From: Ianthella basta
Lineage: Eukaryota > Porifera > Demospongiae > Verongiida > Ianthellidae
Direction: 5' to 3'
DNA: 64,000 bases
NCBI GenBank assembly: GCA_964019415.1
Contig: OZ025888.1
Location: 4,102,536-4,166,535 of the forward strand
Part shown: positions 1,704-41,899 of the stretch, piece after piece
Position numbering within the stretch: position 1 is the first letter of the stretch
How the letters are laid out: the number at the start of each line of letters is the position of its first letter
Notes under the pieces: model-generated
What the model was told of the DNA's origin: nothing
What the model saw: the letters and a program-made list of their open reading frames with translations, nothing else
Databases searched by the model: none
Position numbers and translations under genes: made by a program

Positions 1704-3295
1704 ATGCTCAAGATTAAACCGAGATTCTTTGTACTTCTCCTTCAGCTGTTAACTCTGACATTCTCGGATGACAGTAGCAGTTGTGTAGACAACTATCTGG
1801 ACTTTGAGGAGCAGACCTTTGGCAACAACAGTGAGAACAGGCTAAAGCTGTATGAAGCTTTCTATCCTCCCAATGATCACTTGCCATACTCAGTGGTAGT
1901 GACCTACCAGGCTGTGCTTCCCAATGGAACTAGAGTCAATATCACTACTGATTCCTCCTGCCACAACAGACAAGTGTGGCTGTGGCTGTCTTCTCCGATA
2001 CTACTCTTAACAGAACCAACAGAATTGAATCGCTTAACCCTGTATACCCTCAACCATTTCACTGAGTGGGTTCCTCCACACCTTATTATTACAACTCCAC
2101 TACCTTGTTCTGCCAAGACTGAAGGATTTCTCACACTAATGACTTCTTCAGTAAGTGGTAGAAGAATTTTGCAGATTGTGTCTCATAAACACAAAACACC
2201 TTTGTCTGCAGTGCACTGCAGTTCACATTGTTACTATTCCCTGTCTACACAGTTACCGACATATGCTTTGGAAGAGATGTCAAATGGAGAGCACTTGGGA
2301 TATTCCAGCCAAGGGTGCACCACAGACACGGCTATTGTTTCTTTAATAGATGAAAGTTCTAATTTTCACATTTATCGCATCTTCGGTGCTGTTGGATTTA
2401 CCTTTTTGGTTATATTTCAATCCATGGCATATGCTGTACAGCTCCAAGTACTGTTCGAGCCTCTTTCTCAGAAAATGGACACTCTTAGGTACGCCTTTGA
2501 TTATTACGGGATATTCTGGGGAATGTCAGCCATCTTCTGTCTGTTCCTAATCGTGATCCTGTGCAGAGCTACCACGCACATGTCACTTGTCACCTTCAAC
2601 CCTGGTATCCAGCAAGCAGAATACATCAGATATTTCTGGCCAGTTAACCAAGCTTTCTCCATGATAATGTGTGCCATTTACTTTGGGATCAAGTTTAGGT
2701 TTGCCACTCCATCTGTCTACCTCCTTCCTGCTAAACTCCTCTGCTGCTGCAGTGAGAAACGTGCTGTAATAGTGGTTACTTCACTGACCCTTTGGTGTGA
2801 CTTGGTTGCTGCCCATTACTTTGTTGGCATTGGTACTTTTGTTCTGTTTGCATTTCCTGTGGCACTGTGAATGTGAGGCTGCTTGTGCTGACTTTGATGT
2901 GTCTCACTTACATCATGGCATTGGTCTTTACCATTTGTGCATCACTTGGTACCCGAAAGTGTCTCAGGAGCAATGCTGACTGCTGTGCTACAGTTCGTGC
3001 TGCAATGCTGATCCCTCTCCTGCTGGCTATCATCTGTTTCAGCTCTACTTTTGCTTTAAGTAGCCAGCTTGTCAATACGGCCACTCAGCAGAATAGTTTT
3101 CACATGTTGCTTAAGTCTCTCTTTGCTCCTGTCCTTCTGGCTGTCTTGGGCTTGGGTTTGAAGAGGTTCATTTCTGTCTGGATGCACTGGTCACCTGCTG
3201 ATGTCGATGGTGATATTGCAGTCAATCCACTACATGGAGGTGTGTACGATGGATACCAAGCCATTGATAATGTGGTGCTGAACCTTATGCATTAA
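1704..3295 (+). pseudogene. P1: signal-peptide/ectodomain/7TM family member, broken in exon 2
   Basis: Exon 1 (1704-2150, 149 codons) encodes a signal peptide and the full ectodomain beginning SSCVDNYLDFEEQTFGNNS. Donor GTAAGT is at 2151 and the acceptor AG at 2251-2252. Exon 2 starts at 2253 and runs through four of the seven membrane segments. Around 2858 the sequence lacks 13 bases present in every intact paralog (the start of the PFVVAVN codons), which shifts the frame to a TGA at 2868. The remaining family sequence continues in another frame to TAA at 3295, including the tail motif GYQAIDNV. The 102-base intron has no in-frame stop. The rest is well preserved, so the loss is recent. A truncated four-segment protein could still be made, but a pseudogene is more likely. 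Confidence 0.85.
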
Positions 3296-3869
3296 CCTTT
3301 ATGTATTATGTACTGTTGACTGGACTGAGTGCAATAGGACTTGTGGTTTGTTACTTCAGCTGTATTCCTAGCTAGTGCATCTCCTCCTGTGTGGCTTTCA
3401 ACAATGCTGTATCTTCATTTGCAGTGCTTCCTTTATCCTAAGTTTATAGCAATGTGATTTTCTGCAGCGGTACGTTTTATACATATGTATCTACTCCTGT
3501 GTAGTGTTCATTACATTCTGTAACTTCGCAATGCATTCTTTGTCCTCACATTGATGGAGCAGAAAATATTATAATACATGCCCTAACTTCACGCATTTTG
3601 TACTGTTAGTGTACCTCCCACTGTGACATTTATTTCATACTTATTTGCTGTTGTTAGGTGGTTGCCATGTTTATTGGGTGCCTACATATCAGCTACTTGT
3701 TGTGCAAGGTAATTATATCTAATTGTTGGTGTGAATATCCAATTCTTTGTGTACTTAACTAATTAGACAAGGCGATTGTATTTGATTGGAGACCACTGTT
3801 TGTTCGCATGCACAACACATTCTTGACTGCACAGTCATCCACATGATGACCATCCAGACCAGTACTGGC

Positions 3870-4325
3870 AATCTCCAGATCTCTAGCTGACCCTTTAACA
3901 GCCGGGTTACTGGACACCACCAACAGCCACTGATGCATTCCCTTCTTGTATACCAGTGTGGGTGGGCTCTATCCAGAGCCTCCTTTTAAACTCCCATGCC
4001 GGACACTAATTAATCAATGACATTATTGGAAATGCTATTTGAGATGGTCTATGTACCATGGTGACACAAATGAAAGACAACGTTCGGAACTACACATGGT
4101 AACGTAAGAATATAAAAAAGAAATGGATCGGTGGCTGTTGGCGGTGACCAGTAACCTGGCTGTTAAATGATCAGCTAAAGATCTGGAGGTTCCTGGTGTT
4201 AGTCCAGTTCACTGCAATATTTCTCTTCCCCCCTTTTTCCTTACCATGTGTAGTTCCGAAAGTTGTCTTTCATTCATGTCATCATGGTACATAGACCATC
4301 TCAAATACGTGGAGTTATTTTCGGC
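3870..4325. repeat. Fold-back repeat family R1, copy 1
   Basis: The segment contains two nested inverted repeats. The block at about 3873-3945 (CTAGCTGACCCTTTAACAGC) reappears inverted at about 4130-4188. The block at about 4040-4110 (GATGGTCTATGTACCATGGT) reappears inverted at 4245-4310. Related copies lie at 8887-9335, 51480-51935 and 54598-54855. There is no coding capacity. It looks like a non-autonomous DNA element or a compound of two; I saw no clear target-site duplication. Confidence 0.75.
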
Positions 4326-4836: not shown

Positions 4837-4908
4837 CTCAACATACAGATGACATTCTTCGAGTTTCTCTATTGCTGTTGACCCTGGCTTCATCAGGCAA
4901 TAAAATCA
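4837..4908 (+). pseudogene. Relic of 7TM-family exon 1 (signal-peptide region)
   Basis: The stretch ATTCTCAACATACAGATGAC and what follows aligns with the start-codon and signal-peptide region of the family, then breaks off at 4909. The same relic in the other duplication copy (10913-11040) continues into a decayed CVDNYLD segment, which makes the identification firm. It is too short and degraded to be expressed. Confidence 0.6.
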
Positions 4909-6969: not shown

Positions 6970-8575
6970 ATGATTGAGACTAAATTGGGATTTTTTGTGC
7001 TTCTCCTTCAACTATCAACTCTCACGTTCTCAGTTGGCAGTAGCAGTTGTGTGGACAACTACCTGGACTTTGAGGAGCAGACCTTTGGCAACAACAGTGA
7101 GAACAGGCTAAAGCTGTATGAAGCTTTCTATCCTCCCAATGATCACTTGCCATACTCAGTGGTAGTGACCTACCAGGCTGTGCTTTCCAATGGAACTAGA
7201 GTCAACATCACTACTGATACCAGTTGCCCTGATGGGCAGCTATGGCTATGGCTGTCTTCTCCCATTTCACTGCTTAATGAACCCACAGAATTGAATCGCG
7301 TAGCCCTGTATACCCTCAACCACTTCACTAAGTGGGTTCCCCCACATCTTATCATTACAACACCCCTACCTTGTTCTGCCAAGGCTGAAGGATTCCTCAC
7401 ACTAATGACCACTTCAGTAAGTTCTGTCAGTAGAACAGCTTCTCTAATAATACTAACTCTTGTTCCTTCTGTACACATTATGTAACTCACTCGTTACATC
7501 CTCATCCACCCAGCTCCAGGCCTATGCTGTAGGTGATCAATTGAAGGGAAAGCAACTGGGGTATTCTCGTCAAGGCTGTGGTATGAACGTGTCCAGTGCT
7601 TTTCTAAAGGATGTAAGCTCAGCCATTCCCATTTCTCGCATTGCCTTCTATGCTGGCTTACTGTTTATGATTATTTCTATATGTACAGTATCTGTGGTAC
7701 TGCTCCCAGTCCTCCTTAAGTCCATTTCGCAGAAAATGGAGGTTCATGGTCATTCCTTTGACTATTACGGTATCTTCTGGGGACTGTCAGCCATTCTTTT
7801 CCTGGTATTTGCATTGATCCTGTATAGAGATGCAACAAGCATAACTATGGTCTTCACTACCGACGTTTATCATAAAAGATATTACAAGTATTTCTGGCCT
7901 TTTGCCTTTGCGTTCCTTGGCGTATTTTGCACTCCAGTTGCCATTTACATTGGTGTTAAGTTTGTATTTACCACTCCATCTGTCTACCTCCTTCCTGCTA
8001 AACTCCTCTGTTGCTGCAGTGAGAAACATGCTCGAATATTGGTTACTTCACTGACATTTTGGTTCAACTTGGCTGCATCTGTTTTCCTTCTCGGTCACGG
8101 TTTCGTCATCTTGTTTGCATTCACAATGGCGCCATTTGTTGTTGCTGTGAATGTGATGCTGCTTGTGCTGACTTTCATGTGTCTCACTTACATCATGGCA
8201 TTGGTCTTTACTGTGTGTGCATCACTTGGTACCCGAAAGTGTCTCAGGAGCAATGCTGACTGCTGTGCTACAGTTCGTGCTGCAATGTTGATCCCGTTCC
8301 TGCTGGCTATAATGTGTTTCGTGCTCATGGCTGCGTTGAGTGGTCAGTTTGTCAATAATGCCACTCAGCCAAACAGTTTTAACTCTATTATTAAGTCTCT
8401 ATTCACTCCTGTCTTTCTGGCTGCTGCAAGCTTTGGTTTAAGGAGGTTAATTTCTGTGTGGCTACACTGGTCACCAGGCAATGATGATGGTGGTAATGCA
8501 GTCTATCCAGTACTTGGAAGGATGTACAATGGATACCAAGCCATAGATAATGTGGTAATAGAGTGTGACGAGTAA
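6970..8575 (+). CDS. P2: intact signal-peptide/ectodomain/7TM receptor-like protein
   Basis: Two exons, 6970-7416 and 7514-8575, joined phase 0 across a 97-base GT-AG intron, give about 502 residues. The start is the ATG after TTGGCCAGA, the position used across the family. Residues 1-22 are a signal peptide. The ectodomain follows, with cysteines in SSCVDN, SCPDG and PLPC and sequons in NNS, NGT and NIT. Exon 2 begins LQAYAVGDQLKGKQLGYS, then seven hydrophobic segments, a CCC-containing loop after the third, and a tail with GYQAIDNV ending ECDE. Topology is predicted N-out, C-in, and the sequon between segments 6 and 7 (NNAT) agrees. P3 is its nearest relative. Function is unknown; a cell-surface receptor is inference from architecture. 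Confidence 0.88.
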
Positions 8576-10912: not shown

Positions 10913-11210
10913 GATGCTCAGCATACAGATGACATTCTTCGTGCTTCTCTATTGCTGTTGACCCTGGCTTCAGCAGGCAATAAAATCAGTTGTGTAAACA
11001 GCTACCTAGAGTACAAGTACTGTTACTGTATAACATGGCCACAATGGCACTTGCTCATTTATGAAATGAAGGCCAGAAATAAGCTAAGTATCTGAATGGA
11101 TGTCTTATTACTTGCTCATTGCAATTCGAGTACTAATTTGACTATTTGAATTTGTTAATGTACTGACCCTTTGGTTTATCTTGGTTGATGGCCATTACAT
11201 TGTATGTACT
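10913..11210 (+). pseudogene. Decayed 7TM-family member (exon 1 start plus segment 4)
   Basis: Positions 10913-11020 align with the family from the start-codon region through the signal peptide to AGTTGTGTAAACAGCTACCT, equivalent to SCVDNYL. Positions 11160-11207 (ACTGACCCTTTGGTTTATCT) align with the fourth membrane segment. Everything between them in intact genes is missing, so this is a deleted, long-dead copy. Confidence 0.7.
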
Positions 11211-12717: not shown

Positions 12718-14326
12718 ATGCTTGAGACTAAATTGGGAATTTTTGTGCTTCTCCTTCAACTATCAACTCTCACGTTCTCAGCTGACAATAACAGTTGTGT
12801 GGACAACTACCTGGACTTTGAGGAGCAGACCTTTGTCAACAACAGTGAAAACAGGCTAAAGCTGTATGAAGCTTTCTATCCTCCCAATGATCACTTGCCA
12901 TACTCAGTGGTAGTGACCTACCAGGCTGTGCTTTCCAATGGAACTAGAGTCAACATCACTACTGATACCAGTTGCCCTGATGGACAGCTATGGCTATGGC
13001 TGTCTTCTCCTGTTTCACTGTTTAATGATCCCACAGAATTGAATCGCATAGCCCTGTATACCCTCAACCACTTCACTGAGTGGGTTCCCTCACACCTTAT
13101 CATTACAACACCCCTACCTTGTTCTGCCAAGGCTGAAGGATTCCTCACACTAATGACCTCTTCAGTAAGTTCTGTCAGTAGAACAGCTTCTCTAATAATA
13201 CTAAATCTTGTTCCTTCTGTACACATTATGTAACTCAAATGTTACATCTTCATCTATCCAGCTCCAGGCCTATGCTGTTGATGATCATTTGAAGGGAAAG
13301 CAACTGGGGTATTCTCGCCAAGGCTGTGGTATAGACATGTCTAGTTCTTTTCTTAAGGATATAAGCTCAGCCATGATCATTTATCGCATTGCCTTCCTTG
13401 CTGGCTTACTGTTTATGGCTTCTTCTTCTATATGTACAGCATCTGTTGTACTGCTCCCAGCCCTCCTTAAGCTCCTTTCACAGAAAATGGAGGTTAATGG
13501 TCACTCCTTTGACTATTACGGTATCTTCTGGGGACTGTCAGCCATTCTTTTCCTGGTATTTGCATTGCTCCTATATAGAGATGTGACAATCGTATCTATG
13601 GAATTCACTACCGACTTTTATCATAAAAAGTATTACAAGTATTTCTTTCCATTTGCCTTTGCTTTCCTTTGTGTATTTTGCACTCCTGTTGCCATTTACT
13701 TTGGTGTTAAATTTGTATTTACCACTCCATCTGTCTACCTCCTTCCTGCTAAACTCCTCTGTTGCTGCAGTGACAATTGTGCTCGAATATTGGTTACTTC
13801 GCTGACCTTTTGGTTCAACTTGGCTGCATCTGTTTTCCTTCTCGGTCACGGTTTCGTCATCTTGTTTGCATTCACAATGGCACCATTTGTTGTTGCTGTG
13901 AATGTGATGCTGCTTGTGCTGACTTTCATGTGTCTCACTTACATCATGGCATTGGTCTTTACCGTGTGTGCATCTATTGGCACACGAAAGTGTCTCAGGA
14001 GCAATGCCAACTGCTGTGCTACAGTTCGTGCTGCGTTGTTGATCCCGTTCCTGCTGGCTATCATCTGTTTCGTACTCATGGGTGCATTGAGTGGTCAGTT
14101 TGTCAATAATGCCACTCAGCCAAACAGTTTGTACGCCAATATTAAGTCTCTATTCACTCCTATCTTTCTGGCTGCTCTAAGCTTTGGTTTAAAGAGGTTA
14201 ATTTCTGTGTGGCTACACTGGTCACCAGGCAATGATGATGGTGGTAATGCAGTCAATCCAGTACTTGGAAGGATGTACCATGAATACCAAGCCATGGATA
14301 ATGTGGTAATAGAGTGTGAGGAGTAA
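12718..14326 (+). CDS. P3: intact signal-peptide/ectodomain/7TM receptor-like protein
   Basis: Exons 12718-13164 and 13262-14326, phase 0 with a 97-base intron, encode about 503 residues. It has the same modules as P2, to which it is closest: the stalk LQAYAVDDHLKGKQLGYS is specific to this pair, and the tail reads HEYQAMDNVVIECEE, so the YxxPhi motif is kept with methionine. Differences from P2 cluster in the stalk after the last ectodomain cysteine and in the loop between segments 2 and 3, both predicted extracellular. The third loop keeps NNAT. No defect is seen. Confidence 0.88.
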
Positions 14327-14684: not shown

Positions 14685-16101
14685 TGATATTCCAGGCTGC
14701 CAAGGGTGCACCACAGACACGGCTATTCTGTCTGTAAGTTGTAATTGTCGTATTTATTGCATCTTCTGTGCTATTGGATTTACCTTTTTGGTTCCATTTC
14801 AGTCCATGTATTATGCTGTACTGCACCAAGTACTGCTCAAGTCTCTTTCACAGAAAATGGACACTTGTAGTTACTCCTTTGATTATTATGGATTATTCTG
14901 GGGAATATCAGCCATCTTTTGCCTGTTCCTTATCGTGATCCTGTACAGAGCTACCATGCACATGTTACTTGTCATGTTCAACCCTGGTATCCAACAAACA
15001 GAATACATCAGATATTTCTGGCCAGTTTTCATTGTTACCCTGTGCGCGATTGTGCAATAGGGGTTATGCGTTTGGTTTGTGGCTCTGTTTGTTCATCCTC
15101 ATTTTTGGGCTGTTTGCGCGATTAAGGCACTTTCAAGGGCTCGTGTAGCTCCTGAAAGATAGGTTTCGCTAAAAAAAAAAACAGCCTGTATGTGATCGAC
15201 GACTGCAACAATCACGCAAAAGCTATTAAAACCGTACTTTCTAGTCTTTTGCGGATGGTCCCTTCCCTACCGTGCCTCTGGGCACTTACAGGACAGTCTA
15301 GCAAGCCAGACTAGACAGTCAGCGGCTATAATTATGTGCAGAGTTAGAGTTTGCGGACAGCCCACGTCCATATACGGATAGAGACATAATAGCAATAATA
15401 TATAGCTAGGTCTACACAGTCTCCACACGCACGGGGTATGGTCTCTTCTATGAGGCCTTGTTTTCTCCATGATATTGTGTGCACCTGTGACCATTTACTT
15501 TGGTATCAAGTTTAAGTTCACCACTCCATCTTTCTACCTCCTTCCTGCTAAACTCCTCTGCTGCTGCAATGCGAAACGTGCTGGAATATTAGTTAATTCA
15601 CTGACCCTTTGGCTGGACTAGTTTGCTGACCATTGCATTGTTGCTATTGGTGCTTTTGTTCTGTTTGCATTTCCTGTGGCACCATTTGTTGTTGCTGTGA
15701 ATGTGATGCTGCTTGTGCTGACTTTCATGTGTCTCACTTACATCATGGCATTGGTGTTTACCATTTGTGCATCACTTGGTACCCAAAAGTGTCTCAGGAG
15801 CAATGCTGACTGCTGTGCTACAGTTCATGCTGCAATGCTGATCCCTCTCCTGCTGGCTATCACCTGTTTCAGCTCTACTTTTGCTTTAAGTAGCCAGCTT
15901 GTCAATACGTCTGCTCAGCAGAATAGTTTTCACATGTTGCTTAAGTCTCTCTTTGCTCCAGTCCTTCTGGCTGTCTTGGGCTTGGGTTTAAAGAGGTTCA
16001 TTTCTGTCTGGATGCACTGGTCACCTGCTGATGTCGATGGTGATATTGCAGTCAATCCACTACATGGACGTGTGTATGATGGATATCAAGCCATCAAATA
16101 A
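14685..16101 (+). pseudogene. P4: 7TM-family pseudogene lacking exon 1, split by an insertion
   Basis: Family sequence starts abruptly inside exon 2 near 14690 (CCAAGGGTGCACCACAGACA) with no exon 1 upstream. Segments 1-3 are readable to about 15035, where about 430 bp of foreign sequence interrupts the third segment; the gene resumes at about 15466 with CATGATATTGTGTGCACC. Further damage is a TAG at 15619-15621 in segment 4 and a shift in the tail so that it ends GYQAIK. Its closest relatives are P1, P5 and P7. It is not functional. Confidence 0.88.
15036..15465. mobile_element. Insertion in P4, possible SINE-like element
   Basis: About 430 bp absent from all paralogs sit in the third membrane segment of P4. 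They include an A11 run at 15171-15181 and are otherwise unlike neighbouring DNA. I found no convincing internal promoter boxes, terminal inverted repeats or clear target-site duplication, so the element class is open. Confidence 0.45.
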
Positions 16102-17169
16102 TGTGGTGCTGAACCTAATGCATTAACCTTATGTATTATGTACTGTTCATTGGACAGAGTGCAATAGGACTTGTGGTTTGTTACTTCAGCTGTATTCTAG
16201 TATATGTCTTTCTGTGTGGATTTCAACAAATTCTTTATCTTCAGTTGCGGTGCTTCCTTTGTCCTAAGTTTATAGCAGTGTGATTTTCTGCAGTGATACT
16301 TTTTTATACATATGTATCTACTCCTGTGTAGTGTTCATTACATTCTGTAACTTCGCAATGCATTCTTTGTCCTCACATAAAGTGAAGGATAGAACAGAAA
16401 ATGTTATAATACATGCCCTAACTTCATGTATTTTGTACTGTTTATTTCAATGGGATGTATAAGTCTTGTGCTTTATTACTGCAGCTGTATTGTAGTGTAC
16501 CTCCCACTGTGACGTTTATTTCGTACTTACTTGCTGTTGCTAGGTGGTTGCTATGTTTATTGGGTGCCTACATTTCAGCTACCAGTGATGAAATCCTAAG
16601 CTGAGTGCCAGCCTATTTCAGCCATTTCTGGGACCAGGACTACTCTTCCGCATCGCTGCTCTCTGCCTCACTCTCACATCGATCCCAAAGTTGCAAAATA
16701 GCATTTAACCACTGGATTCTTGGAAGATAGAGTTACTGAGGGTAACGATCATCTGCGGAGCGATCCTTTTCTGCTTAGTCAACAGCTGCACTCGCTTCTC
16801 TGACTGAACTACTAGCCTACTACTGATTTATTATTCTACTTTCTTTGGCAAGATACCAATTATCATTCGCTCATGCTTCTCTTTTATTTCTGGGACCAGT
16901 ACTACTCTTCCGCATCACTGCTCTCTGCCTCACTCTCACATCGATCCCAAAGTTGCGAAATCGCATTTTAATTGACACATTCACCTTTTCATGTAACGTG
17001 AACCACCTGGCCTGAAATGTACTCAGTTTGGATCAGCTTACTCCAGGAATGATTTTCATTTTCAGTACACTCACTGTCACTGTATCACCTTTACTGCTGC
17101 TGCGAATTAGTAAACAAGTAGACCTACTAAACCAGTAGCTTGTACTGTGGCTTCAGTAAATTGATGACA
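16102..17169. other. P4-P5 intergenic region
   Basis: The first 470 bases are family 3' flank closely matching that of P1. Dispersed repeat R2 follows at 16583-16885 with a second partial copy to 16970. The final 200 bases are the P5 leader, which contains GTAAACA at 17110. No other gene is seen. Confidence 0.7.
16583..16970. repeat. Dispersed repeat R2, copy 2 plus partial copy
   Basis: Positions 16583-16885 match 9700-10010. Directly after it, 16888-16968 repeats the segment from ATTTCTGGGACCAGTACTAC through TTGCGAAATCGC a second time, a local tandem gain. Confidence 0.75.
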
Positions 17170-21639: not shown

Positions 21640-23322
21640 ATGCTCAGGATTATGGTGGGATTCACTGTGCTTCTCCTTCAACTGTCAACTCTGACATTCT
21701 CAGCTGACAGTAGTAGTTGTGTGAACAACTACCTGGACTTTGAGGAGCAGACTTTGGGAACAACAGTGAGAACAGGCTAAAGCTGTATGAAGCTTTCTAT
21801 CCTCCCAATGATCACTTGCCATACTCAGTGGTAGTGACCTACCAGGCTGTGCTTCCCAATGGAACTAGAGTCAACATATCCACCAATCCCACCTGCCCTG
21901 ACAGACAAGTGTGGCTGTGGCTGTCTTCTCCCATTTTACTGTTGGTGGAACCAACAAGATTGAATCGTGTAGTTCTGTTTACCCTCAACTACTTCACTGA
22001 GTGGGTTCCCCCACATCTTATCATTACAACACTCCTACCTTGTTCTGCCAAGGCTGAAGGATTCCTCATGTTAATGACCTCTTCAGTAAGTACTGCAGAG
22101 AATTCGTTGCTTCTTGTTGTTTCACAATGCCAGAAGATGTATTACAATGTTTAGTTCATTGTTTTGTTCCATGTTCACCCAGCTTCAGGCATATGCTTTG
22201 GGAGAGATGTCAAAGGGAGAACACCTGGGATATTCACAACTTGGGTGCCTCACTGACATAGCCATTGTTTCTGTAAGGGGACATAACTCAGCTCTTCTCA
22301 CATATCGCATCTTCGGTGCTGTTGGATTTGCCTTGTTGGTCATTTTTCTAATCATGTCACATGCTGTACTTCTCCAAGTACTGCTCAAGTCTCTTTCTCA
22401 GAAAGTGGACACTTGTAGGTACTCCTTTGAATATTATGGGATATTCTGGGGAATGTCAGCGGTCCTCTGTGCGGGTGTATTAGCAGTCTTGTACACAGCT
22501 ACTGCATTCTTGTCACGTTTCACCTTCAATACTGGTGTCCAGCCAACAAGATATATCAGCCACATTTGGCCATTTGTCCTTGCTTTCCCCATCATATTGT
22601 GTTTACCTGTGGCCATTTACTTTGGTGTCAAGTTCAAGTTTACCACTCCATCTGTCTACCTCCTTCTTGCTAAACTCCTCTGCTGCTGCAACAGGAAACG
22701 TGCTGGAATATTAGTTACTTCACTGACCCTTTGGTTTGACTTGGTTGCTGCCATTTGCGGTGTTGGTTTTGGTGTTTTTGCTCTGATAGCTCTTCCGGTG
22801 GCACCATTTGCTGTTGCTGTGAATGTGATGTTGCTTGTGCTGACTTTCATGTGTCTCACTTACATCATGGCATTGGTCTTTACCATCTGTGCATCTGTCT
22901 GCACCCGAAAGTGTCTCAGGAGCAATGTGGACTGCTGTGCTACAGTTTGTGCTGCAATGCTGATCCCTCTCCTGCTGGCTATCATCTGTTTCAGCTCTAC
23001 AGTTGCTTTAAGTGGTCAGTTTGTCAATGCTGCCACTCAGCAGAACAGTTTTCATGTCTTCTTTAAGTCTCTTTTTGCTCCTGTCCTTCTGGCTGCCATG
23101 GGCTTGGGTTTAAAGAGATTCATTTCTGTCTGGATGCACTTGTCACCTGACAATGTCGATGGTGATAATGCAGTCAATCCACTACATGGACATGTGTACG
23201 ATGGATACCAAGCTATTGATAATGTGGTAGTGAACTTTATGCATCAACCTTATGTATTATGTACTGTTCATTGTTCAGAGTGCAATAGGACTTGTGGTTT
23301 TATTACTACAGCTATACTCTAG
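21640..23322 (+). pseudogene. P6: 7TM-family member with frameshift and lost stop
   Basis: Exon 1 (21640-22085) is 446 bases, one short of the family 447: GAGCAGACTTTGGGAACAAC lacks a base, so the reading frame closes shortly after EEQT. Exon 2 (22183-23322) is open throughout. The usual stop codon TAA after MH is CAA here, which adds about 24 residues, including CTVHCSECNRTC, before the next stop. Otherwise the sequence is fresh, with all seven segments and GYQAIDNV. It may be a young pseudogene, an allele, or carry an assembly error at the frameshift. Confidence 0.8.
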
Positions 23323-24860: not shown

Positions 24861-26465
24861 ATGCTTGAGGCTAAACTGGGGGTTTTCGTGCTTCTCCTTC
24901 AGCTGTCAACTCTAATGTTCTCAGTTGACAGTAGCAGTTGCGTGGACAACTACCTGGACTTTGAGGAGCAGACCTTTGGCAACAGCAGTGAGAACAGGCT
25001 AAAGCTGTATGAAGCTTTCTATCCTCCCAATCGTCACTTGCCATACTCAGTGGTAGTGACCTACCAGGCTGTGCTTCCCAATGGAACTGGAGTCAACATA
25101 TCCACCGACTCCTACTGCCTTGACAGACATGTGTGGCTGTGGCTGTCTTCTCCCATTCTGCTCCTGGTGGAACCAACAGAATTGAATCGTGTAGCCCTGT
25201 ATACCCTTAACCACTTCACCAATTGGGTTCCTCCACATCTTATCATTACAACACCCCTACCTTGTTCTGACAAGACTGAAAGATTTCTCACACTAATGAC
25301 CTCTTCAGTAAGTGGTAGAAGGAGTTTGCAGCTTGTACTCTTATACACATAGAACTCATTGTCTGCAGTGTACTACAGTTCACATTGTTCTTGCTACTCC
25401 TTGTCTATTCAGTTTCAGGCCTATGCTTTGGGAGAGATGTCAAAGGGAGTACACTTGGGATATTCCAGCCAAGGGTGTACCACAGACACAGCTATTGTTT
25501 CTTTAATGGATGAAAGTGCAGCTTTCCACATTTATCGATTGATTTGCGCGACTGGCTTTGTCTTTTTAGTTGTATTTCAATCGATGTCATATGCTGTACT
25601 GCTCCAAGTACTGCTCAAGTCTCTTTCTCAGAAAATGGAGGCTTGCAAGTACTCCTTTGATTATTACGGGATATTCTGGGGAATATCAGCCATCTTCTGC
25701 TGGTTCCTAATCGTGATCCTGTACAGAGCTACCATGCACATGTCACTTGTCGCCTTCAACCCTGGTATCCAACAAACAGAATACATCAGATACTTTTGGC
25801 CAGTTTTCATTGTTTTGCCCATGATATTGTGTGCACCTGTGGCCATTTATTTTGGTGTCAAGTTTAAGTTTGCCATTCCATCTGTCTACCTCCTTCCTGC
25901 TAAACTCCTCTGCTGCTGCAACAGGAAACGTGCAGGAATATTGGTTACTTCACTGACCCTTTGGGTTGACTTAGTTGCTGTCCATTACATTGTTGGCATT
26001 GGTGCTTTTGTTCTGTTTGCATTTCCTGTGGCACCATTTGTTGTTGCTGTGAATGTGATGCTGCTTGTGCTGACTTTCATGTGTCTCACTTACATCATGG
26101 CATTGGTCTTTACTGTGTGTGCATCACTTGGTACCCGAAAGTGTCTCAGGAACAATGCCGACTGCTGTGCTACAGTTCGTGCTGCAATGCTGATCCCTCT
26201 CCTGCTGGCTATCATCTGTTTTAGCATCATATTTGCTTTAAGTGGTCAGCTTGTCAATACGTCCACTCAGCAGAGCAGTTTTCATGTGTTTCTCAAGTCT
26301 CTCTTTGCTCCAGTCCTTCTGGCTGTTTTGGGCTTGGGTTTAAAGAGGTTCATTTCTGTCTGGATGCACTGGTCACCTGATGATGTAGAAGGTGATAATG
26401 AAATCAATCCCATACCTGGACATGTGCATAGTGGATACCAAGCCATAGAAAACATGGTGTTGTAG
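24861..26465 (+). CDS. P7: intact signal-peptide/ectodomain/7TM receptor-like protein
   Basis: Exons 24861-25307 and 25413-26465 give about 499 residues. The ectodomain carries private changes in an otherwise rigid block (PPNRHLPYS, NGTGVNIS, SYCLDRHVW) yet keeps all family cysteines. The stalk is FQAYALGEMSKGVHLGYS. Segments 1-7 are complete, with the CCCNRKRAG loop after segment 3 and the NTS sequon between segments 6 and 7. The tail is GYQAIENMVL and stops four residues short of its relatives, so the YQAI motif stays but the usual NLMH end is lost. The 105-base intron contains an in-frame TAG. Confidence 0.87.
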
Positions 26466-27993: not shown

Positions 27994-29591
27994 ATGCTTG
28001 AGACTAAACTGGGGGTTTTCGTGCTTCTCCTTCAGCTGTTAACTCTGATACTCTCAGTTAGCAGTAGCAGTTGTGTGGACAACTACCTGGACTTTGAGGA
28101 GCAGACCTTTGGCAACAACAGTGAGAACAGGCTTAAGCTCTACAAAGCTTTCTATCCTCCCAATGATCATTTGCCATACTCAGTAGAAGTGACCTACCAG
28201 GCTGTGTTTCCCAATGGAACTACAGACAACATATCCACTAATCCCAGCTGCCCTGATGAACAACGATGGTTGTGGCTCTCTTCTCCCATGCTACTCATGG
28301 TGGAACCAACAGAATTGAATCAACTAGCAGTATTTACCCTCAACCACTTCAGTGATTGGAATCCTCCACGTCTTGTCATTACCACTCCACTACCTTGTCG
28401 TAGCAAAGCTGAAGGATTCCTCACACTAATGACCTCTTCAGTAAGTGGTAGAAAGAACTTGCAGCCTTTTGTTTTCAAACCACAGGAAAGTGTTGATGAT
28501 GTTCACAGTGCTTTTTTACTTACACCCAGCTTCAGGCATATGCTTTGAGAGAGATGTCAAAGGGAGAACACCTGGGATATTCACAACATGGGTGCATCAC
28601 TAGAGGCATTCTTTCTCTAGTTGGTCGAAGCTCAGATCTTCAGTTATGCAACATTATCAGCGTTATTGGTTGTGCCTTCTTGGTTATTTTTGAGTCTATA
28701 GCATATGCTGTACTGCTCCAAGTACTCCTCAAGGCTCTTTCACAGAAAATGGAGGCTTGCAAGTATTCCTTTGATTATTATGGAATGTTCTGGGGATTAT
28801 CAGCCACTCTTTTCGCAGTCCTAACTGCACTCCTCTACAAAGGTGTCACACACCTATCTCTTAGCGTGTTTAATCCTCATATCCAACAGGTAGAATATGC
28901 CACATACATCTGGCCAGTTGTCCTTGCTTCCCCCATTATATTCTGTGTACCTATGGCCATTTACTTTGGGATCAAGTTTAGGTTTGCCACTCCATCTGTC
29001 TACCTCCTTCCTGCTAAACTCCTGTGCTGCTGCAGTGAGAAACGTGCTGGAATATTGGTTACTTCACTGACCCTTTGGGTTGACTTGGTTGCTGCCCATT
29101 GCGTTGTTGCTATAGGTACTTTTGTTCTGTTTGCATTTCCTGTGGCACCATTTGTTGTTGCTATAAATGTGATGCTGCTTGTGCTGACTTTCATGTGTCT
29201 CACTTACATCATGGCATTGGTCTTTACCATTTGTGCATCTGTCTGCACCCGAAAGTGTCTCAGGAGCAATGTGGACTGCTGTGCTACAGTTCGTGCTGCA
29301 ATGCTGATCCCTCTCCTGCTGGCTATCATCTGTTTCAGCGTTACTTTTGCTTTAAGTAATCAGCGTGTCAATAGATCCACTCAGCAGAACAGCTTTCACG
29401 TGCTTGTTAAGTCACTGTTTGCTCCTGTCCTTCTGGCTGCCGTAAGTTTTGGTTTGAAGAGGTTCATTTCTTCCTGTATGCACTGGTCACCTGACGATGT
29501 TGAGGGAGGGGATTCAATGGATACACTGCATGAACATGTATATGAGGCACACCAAGCAATTGATAATGTGGTAGTGGACCTTATGCATTAA
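27994..29591 (+). CDS. P8: intact signal-peptide/ectodomain/7TM receptor-like protein
   Basis: Exons 27994-28440 and 28530-29591 (89-base intron) encode about 502 residues. It is the most diverged ectodomain of the central group: NGTTDNIS replaces NGTRVNIS, with SDWNPPRLVI and CRSKAEGF. The stalk reads LQAYALREMSKGEHLGYS. The tail lacks the tyrosine of the sorting motif (EAHQAIDNVVVDLMH). All seven segments, the CCC loop and the C-terminal charge pattern are kept. No defect is seen. If YQAI matters for trafficking, this member should behave differently. Confidence 0.87.
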
Positions 29592-29844
29592 CTTTATGTA
29601 TTGCACACTCTTTATTGGACTGGGTGCTATACGTACGTATGCCTTTAGTTGTATTTACTGCATCTGTATACTAGTGTACATATGTGGCAATCATTGTAAT
29701 TATTTCATTTGCTTTGCTTCTTTGTATGGCTTTATGTACATGTTTGACGTAAATATGAACAATTACTATGGCATACGTATCTCTTTTGTAAACATTAACT
29801 GCTGAAATAATAGTACTGGTTTGATCACAAAAGCCTCAGAATCA

Positions 29845-29990
29845 ATGCTGGCTGATGTGCTGAAGTTCATTATGCGATGCTGATCCCTATCCTACTGGCT
29901 ATCGTCTGTTTTAGCCTTAAGAATTTTGATTGTTTCATATTGCCAGTTTTTGATACCTCCACTGAACAGCACACTAGCCTCTCATAGCTG
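29845..29990 (+). pseudogene. Relic of 7TM-family segment 6
   Basis: CATTATGCGATGCTGATCCC and the following CTACTGGCTATCGTCTGTTTTAG align with the RAAMLIPLLLAIICF codons, followed by a degraded loop and start of segment 7. It lies 250 bp beyond the end of P8 and is part of an otherwise lost copy. Confidence 0.75.
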
Positions 29991-31001: not shown

Positions 31002-32608
31002 ATGCTCAAGATTAATAAACTGGGATTTTCTGTGCTTCTCCTTCAACTGTCAACTCTGACATTCTCAGTTGACAGTAGCAGCTGCGTGGACAACTACCTG
31101 GACTTTGAGGAGCAGACCTTTGTCAACAACAGTGAGAACAGGCTAAAGCTGTACGAAGCTTTCTATCCTCCAAATGATCACTTGCCATACTCAGTGGTAG
31201 TGACATACCAGGCTTTGCTTCCCAATGGAACTAGAGTCAACATATCCACCAATCCCATCTGCCCAGACAGACAAGTGTGGCTGTGGCTGTCTTCTCCTGT
31301 ATTACTCTTGATGGATCCGACAGAATTGAATCGTATAGCCCTTTACACCCTTAACCACTTCATTGACTGGGTTCCCCCACACCTTATCATTACAACACCC
31401 CTACCTTGTTCTACCAAGACTGAAGGCTTCCTCACACTAATGGCCTCTTCTGTAAGTACTGCAAGGTGTTAGCTACATAATATCTTATGGAAATATGGGG
31501 AATGTGTACAACGTTAAGTGCTCTGTTTTATTTCCTGTTGACCCAGCTTCAAGCAAATTCTTTGGGAGAGATGTCAAGTGGAGAGCACCTGGGATATTCA
31601 CAACATGGTTGTACCACTGACATAGGCATTGTTTCTCTACAGAGTCAAAGTTTAGCTGTTCTGCTATTTAACATTATCAGTGTCAGTGGATTTGCGTTTT
31701 TGGTTGTTTTTGAGTCCATGGCATATGCTGTACTGCTCCAAGTACTCCTGAAGGCTCTTTCACAGAAAGTGGAGGCTTGCAACTGCTCCTTTGATCATTA
31801 TGGGATGTTCTGGGGAGTGTCAGCCATCCTCTTCACCGTCCTAATGTTTCTCCTGTACAAAGGTGTCTCACACGTTTCTCTTGTCACTTTCGATCCTGAT
31901 ATCCAACAGGCAGAGTATGCCAGATATTTGTGGCCAGTTGTCTTCGCTGTCCCCATGATAATGTGTGCACCTGTGGCCATTTACTTTGGTGTCAAGTATA
32001 ACTTTACCACTCCATCTGTCTACCTCCTTCCTGCTAAACTCCTCTGCTGCTGCAACAGGAAACGTGCTGGAATATTGGTTACTTCACTGACCCTTTGGGT
32101 TGACTTGGTTGCTGCCCATTACATTGTTGGCATTTGTACTTTTGTTCTGTTAGCATTTTCAGTGGCACCATTTGCTGTTGCTGTGAATGTGATGCTGCTT
32201 GTGCTGACTCTCATGTGTCTCACTTACATCATGGCATTGGTCTTTACAGTTTGCGCATCACTTGGTACTCGAAAGTGTCTCAGGAGCAATGCTGACTGCT
32301 GTGCTACAGTCCATGCTGCAATGCTGATCCCTCTCCTGCTGGCTATCATCTGTTTCAGCTGCACACTTGTTTTAAGTAATCAATTTGTCAATTCTGCCAC
32401 TCAACAGAGCAACTTTCATGTCTTCTTTAAGTCACTGTTTGCTCCTGTCCTTCTGGCTGCCTTGGGTTTGGGTTTGAAGAGGTTCATTTCTATCTGGATG
32501 CATTCATCACCTAATGATGTTGGTGATAACGCAGTCAATCCACTACATGGGCAAGTATACAGTGGATACCAAGCCATAGACACTGTAGCAGTGGAGTGTG
32601 TGCACTAG
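31002..32608 (+). CDS. P9: intact signal-peptide/ectodomain/7TM receptor-like protein
   Basis: Exons 31002-31451 and 31547-32608 (95-base intron) encode about 503 residues. The signal peptide has one extra residue (MLKINKLGF). The stalk is LQANSLGEMSSGEHLGYS, with private LQSQSLAVLL before segment 1. Segments 1-7 are complete. The loop between segments 2 and 3 reads KGVSHVSLVTFDPDIQQAEY. The tail ends SGYQAIDTVAVECVH, an ending shared with P10, so P9 and P10 form a subgroup. The cytoplasmic loop NCSFDHYG differs from the usual YSFDYYG. No defect is seen. Confidence 0.88.
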
Positions 32609-33925: not shown

Positions 33926-33934
33926 CCTGCATGT

Positions 33935-33935
<1 letters not shown>

Positions 33936-34021
<86 letters not shown>

Positions 34022-34419: not shown

Positions 34420-36007
34420 ATGCTCAATATTATACTGGGAGGCTGTGTACTTCTTCAGCTGTCAACTCTGACATTCTCAGTTGACAGTAGCAGTTGTGTA
34501 GACAACTACCTGGACTTTGAGGAGCAGACCTTTGGCAACAACAGTGAGAACAGGCTAAAGCTGTATGAAGCTTTCTATCCTACCAATGATCACTTGCCAT
34601 ATTCAGTGGAAGTGACCTACCAGGCTGTGCTTCCCAATGGAACTAGAATCAACATATCCATCGATTCCAGCTGCCCTTATAGACAAGTGTGGCTGTGGCT
34701 GTCTTCTCCCATTCTGCTATTGTCAGAACCAACAGAATTGAATCGCCTTGCCCTGTATACCCTCAACTACTTCACTGATTGGGTTCCCCCACACCTTATC
34801 ATAACAACACCCCTACCTTGTCCTGCCAAAGCTGAAGGATTCCTCACACTAATGACCTCTTCAGTAAGTGTTAGAAGAAGTTTGATGCATATAATAAGGG
34901 AAGTTTTGTACATTGGTCATATTGTTTTGTTCCATGTTCACCCAGCTTCAGGCATATGCTTTGGGAGAGATGTCAAAGGGAGAGCACTTGGGATATTCAC
35001 AGCTTGCATGCACCACTGGCATACCCATTGTTTCTTTGAAGGGTCAAAGCTCCACTCTTCTCTTGTATGAAATTATCATTTCTATTGGTTTTGCCTTCTT
35101 GGTATTTTTTGTGTTTATGGCTTTTGCTGTACTGCTCCAAGTACTCCTAAAAACTCTTTTACAGAGAATGGATGCTTCCAAATACTCTTTTGATCATTAT
35201 GGGGTGTTCTGGGGAATGTCAGCCATCCTCTTCACTGTCCTAATATTGCTCCTGTACAAATCTGTCGCACACCTATCTATTGTCACCTTCAATCCTGATA
35301 TCCAACAGACAGCACTCAATAGGTACATGTGGCCGGCTATCCTTGCTTTCCCCATCGTATTGTGTGCTCCTGTGGCCATTTACTTTGGTGTCAAGTATAA
35401 CTTTACCACTCCATCTGTCTACCTCCTTCCTGCTAAACTCCTCTGCTGCTGCAACAGGAAACGTGCTGGAATATTGGTTACTTCACTGACCCTTTGGGTT
35501 GACTTGGTTGCTGCCCATTACATTGTTGGCATTGGTGTTTTTGTTCTGGTAGCATTTCCTGTAGCACCATTTGTTGTTGCTGTGAATGTGATGCTGCTTG
35601 TGCTGACTTTCATGTGTCTCACTTACATCATGGCATTGGTCTTTACCATTTGTGCATCTGTTGGTACCCGAAAGTGTCTCAGGAGCAATGCTGACTGCTG
35701 TGCTACAGTTCGTGCTGCAATGCTGATCCCTCTCCTGCTGGCTATCATCTGTTTCAGCTGTACAATTGCTTTAAGTAATCATGTTGTCAATTCTGCCACT
35801 CAACAGAACAGCTTTCATGTCTTCCTCAAGTCTCTCTTTGCTCCTGTCCTTCTGGCTGCCATAAGTTTTGGTTTGAAGAGGTTCATTTCTGTCTGGATGA
35901 AAAGGTCACCTGACAGTGTAGAGCGCGATAATGCAGTCAATCCACATGGACAAGTAAACAACGGATACCAAGCCATAGATAATGTAGCAGTGGAGTGTGT
36001 GCACTAG
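34420..36007 (+). CDS. P10: intact signal-peptide/ectodomain/7TM receptor-like protein
   Basis: Exons 34420-34863 and 34946-36007 (82-base intron, the shortest) encode about 501 residues. The signal peptide MLNIILGGCVLLQLSTL is one residue shorter than in most members, as in P11. The ectodomain has PTNDHLPYSVEV and SCPYRQVW. The stalk is LQAYALGEMSKGEHLGYS followed by QLACTTGIPIVSL: the usual QGC is LAC, but the cysteine is kept. All seven segments are present, and the first cytoplasmic loop is QRMDASKYSFDHYG. The tail is NGYQAIDNVAVECVH. No defect is seen. Confidence 0.88.
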
Positions 36008-36204
36008 CCCAACTGTTTCTATTGGATTTCTTACTGTGTAGTATTTACTTAACTGTTTTTGAATGTATCATACTGTGTGGTGTTTACTGAACAATTTCTA
36101 ATGTACGTAGTTCCTAATGCGTGGTATTCGTTTTCATAATTTAGTTTTGTAACCTTTTGCATTACTTTCCTTGTTAGTCTTGACTTTTCTACGTACTTTG
36201 TATG

Positions 36205-36640
36205 CTTTGTAGTTGCACTGTATGTTGTTGCTGCAAATGTGATGCTGACTGACATGTCTGGCTCATGTCATAGCACTGATGACTTATTTACACTGATTAC
36301 ACTGATTGGTTATTGCCATGCGTCCAACTGTCAGTATTGTACAGTGTGACAAGACCAATGTTGACTGCCATGGTATTACTTGGGCTGCAAAGCTGCTGCA
36401 TCTTCTGCTGGCAATTATCTGTTTATGATTATTTGCTGTCCGTGTATAAATGCCACCTCAACAGAACACCTACAGTACCATGTCTTCTTAATCTCTCATC
36501 ACTCCTGTCTTTCAGAGTACCATGTGCTTGAGATTGAAGTGGTTCATTTTCTCTCTCAATGCTCTGCCCCCCTGTTATTATTAAGGGTGGCATTGCAGAG
36601 GGTCTTTGAGAGTCATGTGGACATATGTACAACAAATTCT
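36205..36640 (+). pseudogene. Decayed 7TM-family copy, segments 5-7
   Basis: TATGTTGTTGCTGCAAATGT (segment 5), GACCAATGTTGACTGCCATG (loop), CTGGCAATTATCTGTTT (segment 6), CCACCTCAACAGAACACC (third outer loop) and GAGATTGAAGTGGTTCATTT (segment 7) follow in family order with many gaps. It lies just beyond P10 and is far older than P1 or P6. Confidence 0.75.
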
Positions 36641-36865: not shown

Positions 36866-37437
36866 CCCCCCTTTCACATGGCACTGTGAAGCTGGATTCG
36901 AATCCAGATTAGAATCCGTGTTTAGCTCTGAGAGTGCTGGTTGTGTTCACATAGCACAGAGGCTCCTTTGTGGTCTGTTGGTTATAGAGCCGCAACCACA
37001 AACACCTGACAGCTGGGAAAATGGTCGTTCTCATCCAATTCGCCTATCCCCCATGCTCTATAAACAAGTCTTTGTGCTTCAATCTGTGAAATTTGTTCAA
37101 GTTCGCAATGCTTTACGATGATATACAGCACGATGGAAACTGCAGTGCCGCAACTCTTCTACGAGGTTCATGCAAATGTTCACATTCCTGAAACGTACCG
37201 AATAAGCCCCTGTTGATTGCCCTAGCGTTAGATCTTCGAAATCAGCTCATTTCTGTGTTGCCCGACATGCAAGCCCTTTCCGCCATCTTTTATTGCATAC
37301 GGAATACGATATTGCACAATCTTGTAGCGGGATCCGGATTGAAATCCGCCTCCAAAGTAGGATCGGATAATAATAAAGTAGGATTGTGCGCATGTGAATG
37401 GCACAATCTGGATTACAGTGGCTATGTGAAAGGGGGG
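36866..37437. mobile_element. DNA transposon remnant (572 bp) with CAT target duplication
   Basis: The left end CCCCCCTTTCACATGGCAC and the complement of the right end (CCCCCCTTTCACATAGCCAC) form terminal inverted repeats of about 20 bp. CAT occurs at 36863-36865 and 37438-37440, a 3 bp target duplication as in PIF/Harbinger-type elements. No transposase frame is present. Host sequence on both sides belongs to a relic 7TM gene (TTCCAGTGGCA before, GTTGCTGCAAATGTGATGC after), so the insertion split that gene. Confidence 0.75.
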
Positions 37438-37490
37438 CATGTGTCGTTGCTGCAAATGTGATGCTGCTTGCGTGCTGACGTTCATGCGAT
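37438..37490 (+). pseudogene. Relic of 7TM-family segment 5, right of the transposon
   Basis: GTTGCTGCAAATGTGATGCT and GTGCTGACGTTCATG align with the VVAVNVMLLVLTFM codons of intact members. The partner fragment to the left of the transposon (36845-36865) aligns with the FPVAP codons. Nothing further of this copy survives. Confidence 0.7.
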
Positions 37491-39188: not shown

Positions 39189-39475
39189 CAATGGTCTGTT
39201 CAAAGACTGTTGGTGAGATCATGTGAAACTAGCCATGATTACTGCAGTCAAAATACAATCCAGCATTGGTGTGTTAGACTGCGTTCCCTGCACATAACAT
39301 CACTCCCACCAATCTGCCACATGTGCAGCACATGAGGTTGTATGTTCCAATGAGTGCATTTTGATGTGTTGACCATCAGTTTCTTCTTGCTGTTCTTCCA
39401 TTGAACAGTACTGTAAAGTGTTGTGAGCTCTGTATAGTATACAGCATGCCTGTGGTGTCCCCCTATGTAGAGTAT
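39189..39475 (+). repeat. Upstream block shared by P10 and P11, copy 2
   Basis: Partner of 33681-33925. It ends with CCCCTATGTAGAGTATCTAT, after which copy 1 has the GT expansion and this copy does not. Confidence 0.8.
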
Positions 39476-39680
39476 CTATAATGTGATAGCATTACATTGT
39501 CATACTGTAGTTACTGTAACTTATGTAGATCTGTTTACCTCACTCTGAGGATTGAGCTAAATTTCAATATATAAGTCAGTGCAGTTACAGTATCATCTTC
39601 ACTATTCCAGCTTGTCAGTAAAATAGTGAACTAAGATAAAAACCAGTAGTTTATGCCGTGTCTTCAGCCACTTGGTTAGA

Positions 39681-41899
39681 ATGCTAAAGATTATACTGGG
39701 AGTCTCTGTACTTCTTCAGCTGTCAACTCAGGCGTTCTCAGTTGACAGTAGCAGCTGCGTGAACAATTACCTGGACTTTGAGGAGCAGACCTTTGGCAAC
39801 AACAGTGAGAACAGGCTAAAGCTGTATGAAGCTTTCTATCCTCCAAATGATCACTTGCCATACTCAGTGGTAGTGACCTATCAGGCTGTGCTTCCCAATG
39901 GAACTAGATTCAACATATCCACCGATCCCACCTGCTCTGACAAACAAGTGTGGCTGTGGCTGTCTTCTCCAATTTTGCTTACTACAGATCCTGTAGATGT
40001 GAATCGCCTAGCCCTGTATACCCTCAACCACTTTACTGAGTGGGTTCCCCCACATCTAATCATTACAACACCCCTACCTTGTCCTGCCAAAGCTGAAGGA
40101 TTCCTCACACTAATGACCTCTTCAGTAAGTGTTGCAAGGAAGCTTTAATTAATGCTGCACCAATAAGCTAATCAGCAATCAGTATTGACCAATAATGGGC
40201 CTCCATTCTTCCGGCAGCCAGCACTTTCAACTGATCTCGATCTAATTACATCTGACGAATACCTGGCGTTCATAATAAAGATATGATATCAAATGCTTAT
40301 GCTGTTTTGTGCTTTGTACCTGCTGATTGTGGATCATTTCATTTATTCCTATTTGGTCCTCAAATGTGGTAGTGCTTCAGATTTGGGCACTGTTGTTTCT
40401 GTCGTAAAGGCCTTGGTTCCAGACAGAGCAGGGAGTACTGTGCAAGCTGATTATAGAGTGTCCATGGCTTTGTAGGAGAATGGAAAGAACATCATGCGAC
40501 AAGACTATTACAGTACATTACAAAGTTAGAGAATATCTTCAGATATACTGCTAGAATGGTAATTTAAGCTTGAAACTTGAAATGGTAATTCTACAAAATG
40601 TAACCCCCTAATGAACATTCAAATGGTTATGTTACATAGCAACTCTATGCCACATATTTCATGAATGCATACTAAATATGGAAATATTGGATTGATAGTG
40701 GTGCTGAAATATTGAAAACATAATTATACTGTGTTATCAAAACTATATTAGTGGAATATGTTTGTTTCTCTTGTACTCACAGAGCTTCTTATTCATTAAC
40801 GTTCTTCATAATACGTATTACTGCTCCTCTTCTACTTCAGTTACAGGCATATGCTTTGGGAGAGATGTCAAAGGGAATGCACCTGGGATATTCCAGCCAA
40901 GGGTGCACCACAGACACGGCTATTGTTTCTAGGAAATATGAAATCGCATCTGTTAACATTTACCGCTTCTTTTATGTTGTTGGATTTATTTTCTTGGTTA
41001 TTTTTGACTTTGTGGCATCTGCTCTACTGCTCCAAGTACTCCTCAAGACTCTCTCACAGAAAATGGAAGCATATCGTTACTCATTTGAATACTATGGGAT
41101 TTTCTGGGGGATGTCAGCAGTCCTCTTCCCCATCCTATTGTTGCTTCTGTACAGTGACATTTCCCAAGTAGCATGTGTCACCTTCAATCCCAATGTGCAC
41201 CAAACAAAATACACCAGGTTCATGTGGCCATTTGTTCTTGCCTCCCCCATGGTATTCTGTGCACCTGTGGCCATTTATTTTGGTGTCAAGTTTAAGCTGG
41301 CAGCTCCTTCTGTCTACCTCCTTCCTGCTAAACTCCTCTGCTGCTGCAACAGGAAACGTGCTGGAATATTGGTTACTTCACTGGCCCTTTGGTTTGACTT
41401 GGCTGCTGCCAATTTCATTGTTGGTCATTGTGTATATGTACTGTATGCTTTCCTAGTTGCACCGCTTGTTGTTGCTGTGAATGTGATGCTGCTGATGCTG
41501 ACCTTCATGTGTCTCACTTACATCATGGCATTGGTCTTTACAGTTGGTGCATCACTTGCTACTCGAAAGTGTCTCAGGAGCAATGCTGACTGCTGTGCTA
41601 CAGTTCGTGCTGTAATGTTGATCCCCCTCCTGCTGACTATCATCTGTTTTGGCTCTACAGTTGCTTTAAGTAATCAATTTGTCAATACTTCCACTCAGCA
41701 GAACAGTTTTCACATCTTACTCAAGTCCATAGTCGGTCCTGTCCTTCTGGCTGTTGTGAGCTTGAATTTGAAGAGGTTTGTCTTTGCATGGTTGTACTCA
41801 TCATCTGACAGCATGGAAGATGGTAATACAGTCAATCCACCACCATATGGACAAGTGTACAATGGATACCAGGATATGGATAGTTTATTAATGGACTAG
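39681..41899 (+). CDS. P11: intact, most diverged 7TM-family member, long intron
   Basis: Exons 39681-40124 and 40841-41899 encode about 500 residues. The intron is 716 bases, against 82-105 in all other members, with no recognisable insert ends. The ectodomain is typical (SSCVNNYLDFEEQ, TCSDKQVW) with private TTDPVDVN. The stalk is LQAYALGEMSKGMHLGYS. Segments 1-7 are present but carry the most changes (KSIVGPVLLAVVSLNLKRF in segment 7), and the tail ends NGYQDMDSLLMD, keeping YxxPhi as YQDM. It is the last copy before the dynein gene; end copies often escape conversion, which fits its divergence. Confidence 0.87.

Follow-up and report, generated by a model that had tools for sequence, protein, structure and literature searches.

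A stretch of 64,000 nucleotides from the sponge Ianthella basta (contig OZ025888.1, here C21, positions 4102536–4166535; hereafter the window) carries a tandem array of genes for a surface-type membrane protein that could not be assigned to a named receptor class or family. The array belongs to a family spread over the genome, whose members possess a signal peptide, an ectodomain with four conserved cysteines, a positive-inside charge bias that fits an orientation with the N-terminus outside (N-out), a conserved cytoplasmic face and a variable outer face. We favour, tentatively, the view that these are diversified chemoreceptor-like proteins with seven transmembrane segments (7TM), in which a conserved ectodomain would accompany a variable outer pocket and a common inner effector face, and which may cycle through the endolysosomal system.

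Structure and genomic extent of the array

The tandem array is real, as 11 copies show at least 60% identity to the reference across 300-nt stretches, which excludes chance. The exon encoding the membrane part (exon 2) occurs 11 times, always on the forward strand, between 2253 and 41899 of the window; the preceding exon 1, which encodes the signal peptide and ectodomain, occurs ten times, and the array as a whole spans 1704–41899. The initial annotation had reported 11 same-strand copies and at least five relics. The former number holds for exon 2 but neither for exon 1 nor for intact genes, both exons being open in only eight copies (2, 3, 5 and 7–11). The relics are five exon 2 pieces at four places, none of them accompanied by an exon 1 piece, in addition to the interrupted copy 4.

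Exons 1 and 2 are separated by a single phase-0 intron (GTAAGT...CAG). Nine copies have an intron of 82–105 nt, and that of copy 11 measures 716 nt. Copy 1 comprises exon 1 at 1704–2150, open up to its GTAAGT donor, and exon 2 (the end of the ectodomain and the membrane part) at 2253–3292, with a frame break near 2864 where tblastn and hidden Markov model searches both return two frames. It is followed by copy 2 (6970–7416 and 7514–8575, with the tail motif GYQAI at about 8531–8545), a relic at 11150–11203, copy 3 (12718–13164 and 13262–14326) and copy 4 (14686–16126), which consists of exon 2 without exon 1 and is interrupted at about 15040–15456. Copy 5 (17170–17616 and 17722–18786) is intact; in copy 6 (21640–22085 and 22183–23322) the exon 1 frame is broken near 21,750 and that of exon 2 runs past the usual end. 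Copy 7 (24861–25307 and 25413–26465, GYQAI at about 26433–26447) serves as the reference for residue numbering. Beyond it lie copy 8 (27994–28440 and 28530–29591, with the degenerate tail motif AHQAI), a relic at 29835–29919, copy 9 (31002–31451 and 31547–32608), copy 10 (34420–34863 and 34946–36007), a relic in two pieces at 36166–36598 (36166–36252 and 36305–36598), a further relic at 37430–37486, and copy 11 (39681–40124 and 40841–41899). All of these, relics included, are on the forward strand. The introns of copy 5 (17617–17721, 105 nt) and copy 1 (2151–2252) happen to be free of stop codons in frame, such that their retention would yield a longer protein; this is probably due to chance.

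The window array is one cluster of a genome-wide family and not an isolated unit. In the searched assembly (209 Mb, 96 contigs) there are at least 116 matches to the copy 7 membrane exon at E <= 1e-3 and at least 150 to the ectodomain exon at E <= 0.01, fragments being included in both counts. The ectodomain matches are distributed over 15 contigs (C1, C2, C3, C5, C6, C7, C9, C10, C12, C13, C15, C20, C21, C22 and C23), and in loci of 13 of these, the exceptions being C7 and C15, both exons could be read side by side. On C21 itself the array extends over about 116 kb (C21:4,075,885–4,191,259) and includes 20 copies of exon 1, ten of them inside the window; a gap of about 40 kb containing dynein-type exons sets the last two apart from the others.

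From the part of the members that was fetched, 33 two-exon proteins were assembled, broken or partial members being excluded. The family also has divergent members, designated L041 (on C22), L044 and L045 (both on C6), and profile comparison by hhalign of the family membrane part gave probabilities of 99.9% with L044, 64% with L045 and 26% with L041. When the tree is rooted on L041, the 13 members sampled from the C10 cluster and the 12 from the C21 array fall into separate clades, with support of 0.83 and 0.99, respectively. L041 and L044 may resemble uncharacterised cnidarian and sponge proteins, a likeness that we treat as a lead only. Relatives were sought in viral contigs, where 15 stretches fit a pattern, and in prokaryote genomes (48 stretches); none was found there, which says nothing on other animals.

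Two observations on other contigs may be added. On C15, at 5,025,632 and 5,031,564, the family exons are embedded in long open frames (1993 and 1785 aa), which are perhaps repeats. On C10, at 4,001,887–4,007,326 and again at 4,027,644–4,033,486, an adhesion-type 7TM exon is found 4–5 kb from a family exon 2, as if a two-gene segment had been duplicated.

Architecture and topology of the protein

The combination of signal peptide, ectodomain and membrane part that had been described for each complete copy, and with it the surface character of the protein, is supported by the sequence. The boundaries require revision. Cysteines 27, 86, 135 and 171 (copy 7 numbering) are invariant in all 33 assembled proteins, and because the last of these is encoded in exon 2, the ectodomain crosses the exon junction. 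It comprises about 147 residues up to C171, instead of the roughly 120 first proposed, and part of what had been described as a separate stalk belongs to it. As judged by eye, the divergent L044 lacks counterparts of C27 and C135 and retains those of C86 and C171; this single member suggests disulfide bonds 27–135 and 86–171. Of the 33 proteins, 32 have a potential N-glycosylation site (sequon) at N74.

The membrane part displays seven hydrophobic peaks and a marginal one at residue 309. A crude helix scan of the 33 proteins, based on a hydrophobicity scale and three thresholds, returned seven helices in 9, 20 and 7 proteins, respectively, with a range of 5–9, and the uncertain stretch (residues 321–386) offers room for two long or three short helices. 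Lysine and arginine are more numerous in the inner than in the outer loops in every one of the 33 proteins (means of 10.6 vs 4.3), the inner loops also being the longer ones. As this positive-inside bias is accompanied by a signal peptide, it favours an N-out topology and an odd number of helices. Seven is probably correct: the seven segments proposed by the initial annotation remain the best-supported count, even if not a unanimous one, and six or eight are neither established nor cleanly excluded.

A sequon between transmembrane (TM) helices TM6 and TM7 had previously been cited in favour of the N-out orientation. Its support is weak, as it occurs at two neighbouring positions with counts of only 6 and 4 among the 33 proteins. 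Per 1000 residues there are 17.2 sequons in the ectodomain, 11.1 in the outer loops, 2.8 in the inner loops and 11.7 in the cytoplasmic tail; because the tail is as rich as the outer loops, sequons lend modest support to the topology, and the charge bias is the stronger argument.

Search against known families

The absence of a recognisable receptor class, already noted from the sequence, was borne out by separate Pfam scans of the two exons. No credible match was obtained for 28 membrane parts (best E 0.0092) or for 23 ectodomains (best E 0.015), the best match in each case involving a single member and an unrelated family, nor for the scanned pieces of L041, L044 and L045 (best E 0.057, again an unrelated family). 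Among PDB sequences the ectodomain had no match and the membrane part two at chance level (0.17 and 0.33). The families 7tm_1, 7tm_2 and 7tm_3 were absent from those matched at E <= 1 by the 28 membrane parts, and the 7tm_1, 7tm_2 and 7tm_3 matches listed for the sponge genome itself all lie away from family places (for 7tm_2, the best 150 of 427 candidates were scored). Comparison by hhalign with profiles of class A, B and C G-protein-coupled receptors (GPCRs), built from 5, 7 and 6 sequences of the same genome, gave probabilities below 1%, but at this depth the comparison has no discriminating power, since classes A, B and C likewise stayed below 1% when set against one another. GOST_TM or GOLD was found in none of the 28 membrane parts and none of the 23 ectodomains, and GAIN in none of the 23 ectodomains; the five GOST_TM exons of the genome are confined to C2 (0.27–0.29 Mb), none being at a family place. 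No article naming this family was found in the open-licence PMC literature, and the accessible parts of the Amphimedon survey list no such family (PMC4302439).

Variation among the copies

The paralogues differ most where the membrane part faces outwards. We compared per-site entropy in two clusters that expanded separately (12 proteins from C21 and 13 from C10), with outer and inner sides taken from our own topology. The outer membrane face has an entropy of 1.19 in C21 and 1.00 in C10, compared with 0.55 and 0.30 for the inner face, and the ectodomain has 0.44 in both clusters. A difference between outer and inner face as large as that observed was reached in only 5 of 292 circular shifts for C21 and 4 of 292 for C10. 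Variability along the membrane part is correlated between the clusters (rho 0.46, n = 289), both showing peaks in the juxtamembrane segment, the outer parts of TM1 and TM2, the first outer loop and the outer part of TM3, and nonsynonymous divergence (dN) in codon windows peaks at the same places.

Among the eight intact copies of the window, copies 1, 4 and 6 being left out of this two-exon comparison, the ratio of dN to synonymous divergence (dS) is 0.31 for the ectodomain (0.099/0.323; interval 0.21–0.44) and 0.49 for exon 2 (0.233/0.472; 0.42–0.58), an order that was reversed in 18 of 2000 bootstraps. By this crude test, applied to the window and to C10, there was no sign of positive selection, in that no dN/dS ratio exceeded 1. 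Within the window, dS is also lower in exon 1 than in exon 2 (reversed in 14 of 2000 bootstraps), and some pairs of copies are ranked differently by their two exons; for both reasons the data suggest exchange between copies.

Signals in the cytoplasmic tails

The 53 distinct tails that we compiled are rich in motifs of the kind used in membrane traffic. Those of the C21 array mostly contain GYQAI or a near variant, and in members from other contigs motifs of this type form the exact C-terminus: GYEAI on C5 (one member), GYEVV and GYKAV on C13 (two), AYEAI on C20 (one) and GYDSI on C1 (one). Further tails carry GYHII (C9), YEPI (C6), YEHI (C23) and EYEELLD (C12). When one representative tail from each of 15 subfamilies was compared with shuffled versions, YxxPhi was present in 10 of the 15, against 2.94 in shuffled sequences, with none of 5000 shuffles reaching 10; YxxPhi or [DE]ELL was present in 12, against 3.01. 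The representative tails of C10 and C15 carry DEELL and lack YxxPhi. In C10, where 20 distinct tails are available, acidic dileucines take the forms DEELL, DDELL and DEDLL.

Sorting signals that are well established include (G)YXXPhi, [DE]XXXL[LI] and DXXLL, and YxxPhi and acidic dileucines are read by clathrin adaptors (PMC5297682). The presence of such motifs in the tails thus suggests endolysosomal sorting of the family proteins.

Evaluation of the proposed model and its alternatives

In the model that we favour, the outer membrane face would form a pocket, and different copies would bind different soluble ligands. The ectodomain would act as a shared module for folding, export or contact with a partner, instead of reading variable ligands. 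The constant inner face would couple all copies to one common effector, and YxxPhi, or DEELL/DDELL in members from C10 and C15, would move the protein between surface and endolysosome via clathrin adaptors. Ligand, pocket, effector and cycling are all elements that we infer from sequence. It is conceivable, if doubtful, that the family amounts to an unnamed animal 7TM class in which a conserved, disulfide-bonded outer domain lies over a hypervariable membrane pocket and the tails use either a tyrosine-based or a dileucine endolysosomal signal, switching from one to the other among members, serving as a chemosensory or microbe-sensing repertoire; such a class would be built in reverse of most receptors that bear an ectodomain.

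Several observations weigh against this model. In C10 (13 genes) the dN/dS ratios of the two exons are equal (0.116/0.273 = 0.42 for exon 1; 0.164/0.401 = 0.41 for exon 2) and one ectodomain stretch reaches 0.75, so the lower ectodomain ratio is a trait of the window array and not of both clusters; ectodomain entropy in C10 (0.44) also exceeds that of the inner face (0.30). The outer stretch of the window copies, with a dN/dS of 0.64 (0.46–0.87), is relaxed or mildly diversifying by our crude test, and the sides used throughout derive from a topology that is itself predicted. Because dS on that stretch is raised (0.77 vs 0.41), unequal homogenisation, with gene conversion sparing the outer stretch, possibly accounts for part of the pattern. 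YxxPhi is missing from five of the 15 subfamily tails (C2, C3, the far C6, C10 and C15), and as these tails share ancestry and were chosen by us, the shuffle test overstates their independence. Two AlphaFold models, made from window sequences only and the second without the ectodomain exon, reached a mean local confidence (pLDDT) of just 40.6 and 41.3 and a global score (pTM) of 0.25, too low for a fold search or for deciding on a GOLD-type beta-sandwich in the ectodomain; at that low confidence (pLDDT about 41) the ectodomain was modelled with helix and strand segments.

The architecture would also suit a receptor for membrane traffic or cargo in the secretory and endolysosomal route, similar to GOST proteins or Wntless, whose ectodomain would chaperone or capture cargo and whose tail would direct cycling: the ectodomain stands right before the 7TM-like part, the tails carry adaptor-type signals, and GOST proteins are located in the Golgi and endocytic vesicles (PMC12716839). 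We consider this unlikely, as GOST families are small whereas this one has at least 116 membrane-exon matches, the genome has its own GOST_TM exons elsewhere, and neither GOST nor GOLD was matched in the Pfam scans. Less likely still is a transporter or ion channel with an outer face diversified for different substrates. Variability near an outer vestibule would suit substrate choice equally well, and the family lies outside Pfam and PDB by sequence, but its N-out orientation and signal peptide contrast with the N-in insect receptor channels.

Two further explanations appear improbable, and about equally so. One takes the YEx[ILV] tails (YEAI, YEVL, YEPI, YEHI, YEEL) for phosphotyrosine signalling sites, that is, SH2 docking sites or half of an immunoreceptor tyrosine-based activation motif (half-ITAM), with the helices serving as a scaffold. 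SH2 domains prefer pYEEI-like sites, and YExPhi does occur in 7 of the 15 tails, against 0.43 in shuffled ones. In the 20 C10 tails, however, the place of the tyrosine is taken by D in 13, by Y in one and by other residues in six, and L-L is kept in all 20, which preserves an adaptor signal and not an SH2 site; replacement of the tyrosine with retention of the dileucine would fit sorting better than SH2 docking. The other explanation is allorecognition, or self/non-self recognition. The initial annotation had proposed a cell-surface receptor or an allorecognition-type cluster, and the surface-type character stands. A tandem array of many copies of a surface protein, some of them frame-broken, would be expected of such a system, and the C10 ectodomain is no more constrained than its exon 2. 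Low ectodomain entropy in both clusters, set against the far more variable outer face, and the low ectodomain dN/dS in the window nevertheless argue against allorecognition, as does the absence of a Pfam recognition domain from the 23 ectodomains. Allorecognition was set aside as the leading reading as the ectodomain varies little among paralogues, an argument that the dN/dS values of C10 weaken.

Should the chemoreceptor-like model be correct, this would rank with the most numerous groups of membrane receptors that the genome encodes, missed for want of a Pfam model. Its repertoire would be larger than that of the rhodopsin class, for which 10 matches were obtained at E <= 1e-8 as compared with at least 116 for the family membrane exon at E <= 1e-3, the thresholds being different. 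Sensing of chemicals or microbes by an early-branching animal with a large receptor set would become directly testable, and so would the idea of a conserved ectodomain working together with a pocket that varies. The case would also be a warning that entire families can escape receptor surveys that rely on Pfam profiles.

Other genes

Downstream of the array, at 45639–51276 on the forward strand, the window contains exons of dynein heavy chain type (microtubule-binding stalk profile E 1.3e-5, with a weak AAA lid match at E 0.029, below the cut-off). A possible gene for a fibrinogen-like C-terminal domain lies at 52641–53204 on the reverse strand (weak Pfam match, E 0.029, likewise below the cut-off). 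Elsewhere in the genome, a PIP5K domain is encoded by a single exon at C20:6,507,217–6,508,200, within an open frame of 729 aa, and is a candidate GPCR-PIPK fusion only; among animals, such proteins have been reported in sponges only (PMC12716839).

Comparison with known systems

The chemoreceptor families (odorant, gustatory and nematode) are characterised by a variable outer and a constant inner membrane face. Both this trait (in two clusters, and on our own topology) and tandem expansion with broken copies are present in the sponge family. Tandem clustering is common in chemoreceptor families (PMC11526382). The sponge family differs from them in its conserved four-cysteine ectodomain, and no sequence relation was found.

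The sponge's own adhesion GPCRs (7tm_2) resemble the family in forming large tandem 7TM clusters, with at least 155 exon matches, but none of the 7tm_2 matches listed is at a family place and the 23 family ectodomains lack GAIN. At C12:4.78–5.04 Mb and C9:3.13–3.33 Mb, receptors of the adhesion type (7tm_2) and of class C (7tm_3) form tandem clusters of very large size. With LAMP-type lysosomal proteins, which have a single membrane helix and of which LAMP1 ends in the tail GYQTI, the family shares a C-terminal GYxxPhi tail and only that. GOST proteins (TMEM87, GPR107/108, GPR180, TMEM145 and Wntless) have an ectodomain, seven helices and endomembrane cycling, the last of which the family would share under our model; they differ in that the family has no GOST_TM match, is tandem-expanded and is distinct from the sponge's own GOST exons on C2.

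The published group most worth comparing is that of the Hi-GOLD receptors, described (eLife 2025, PMC12716839) from choanoflagellates, sponges, ctenophores, placozoans and cnidarians, with function unknown. They possess a GOLD domain, where the low-confidence model of the family ectodomain gives only helix and strand segments, and as in the family their ectodomain stands directly before the 7TM part (PMC12716839).

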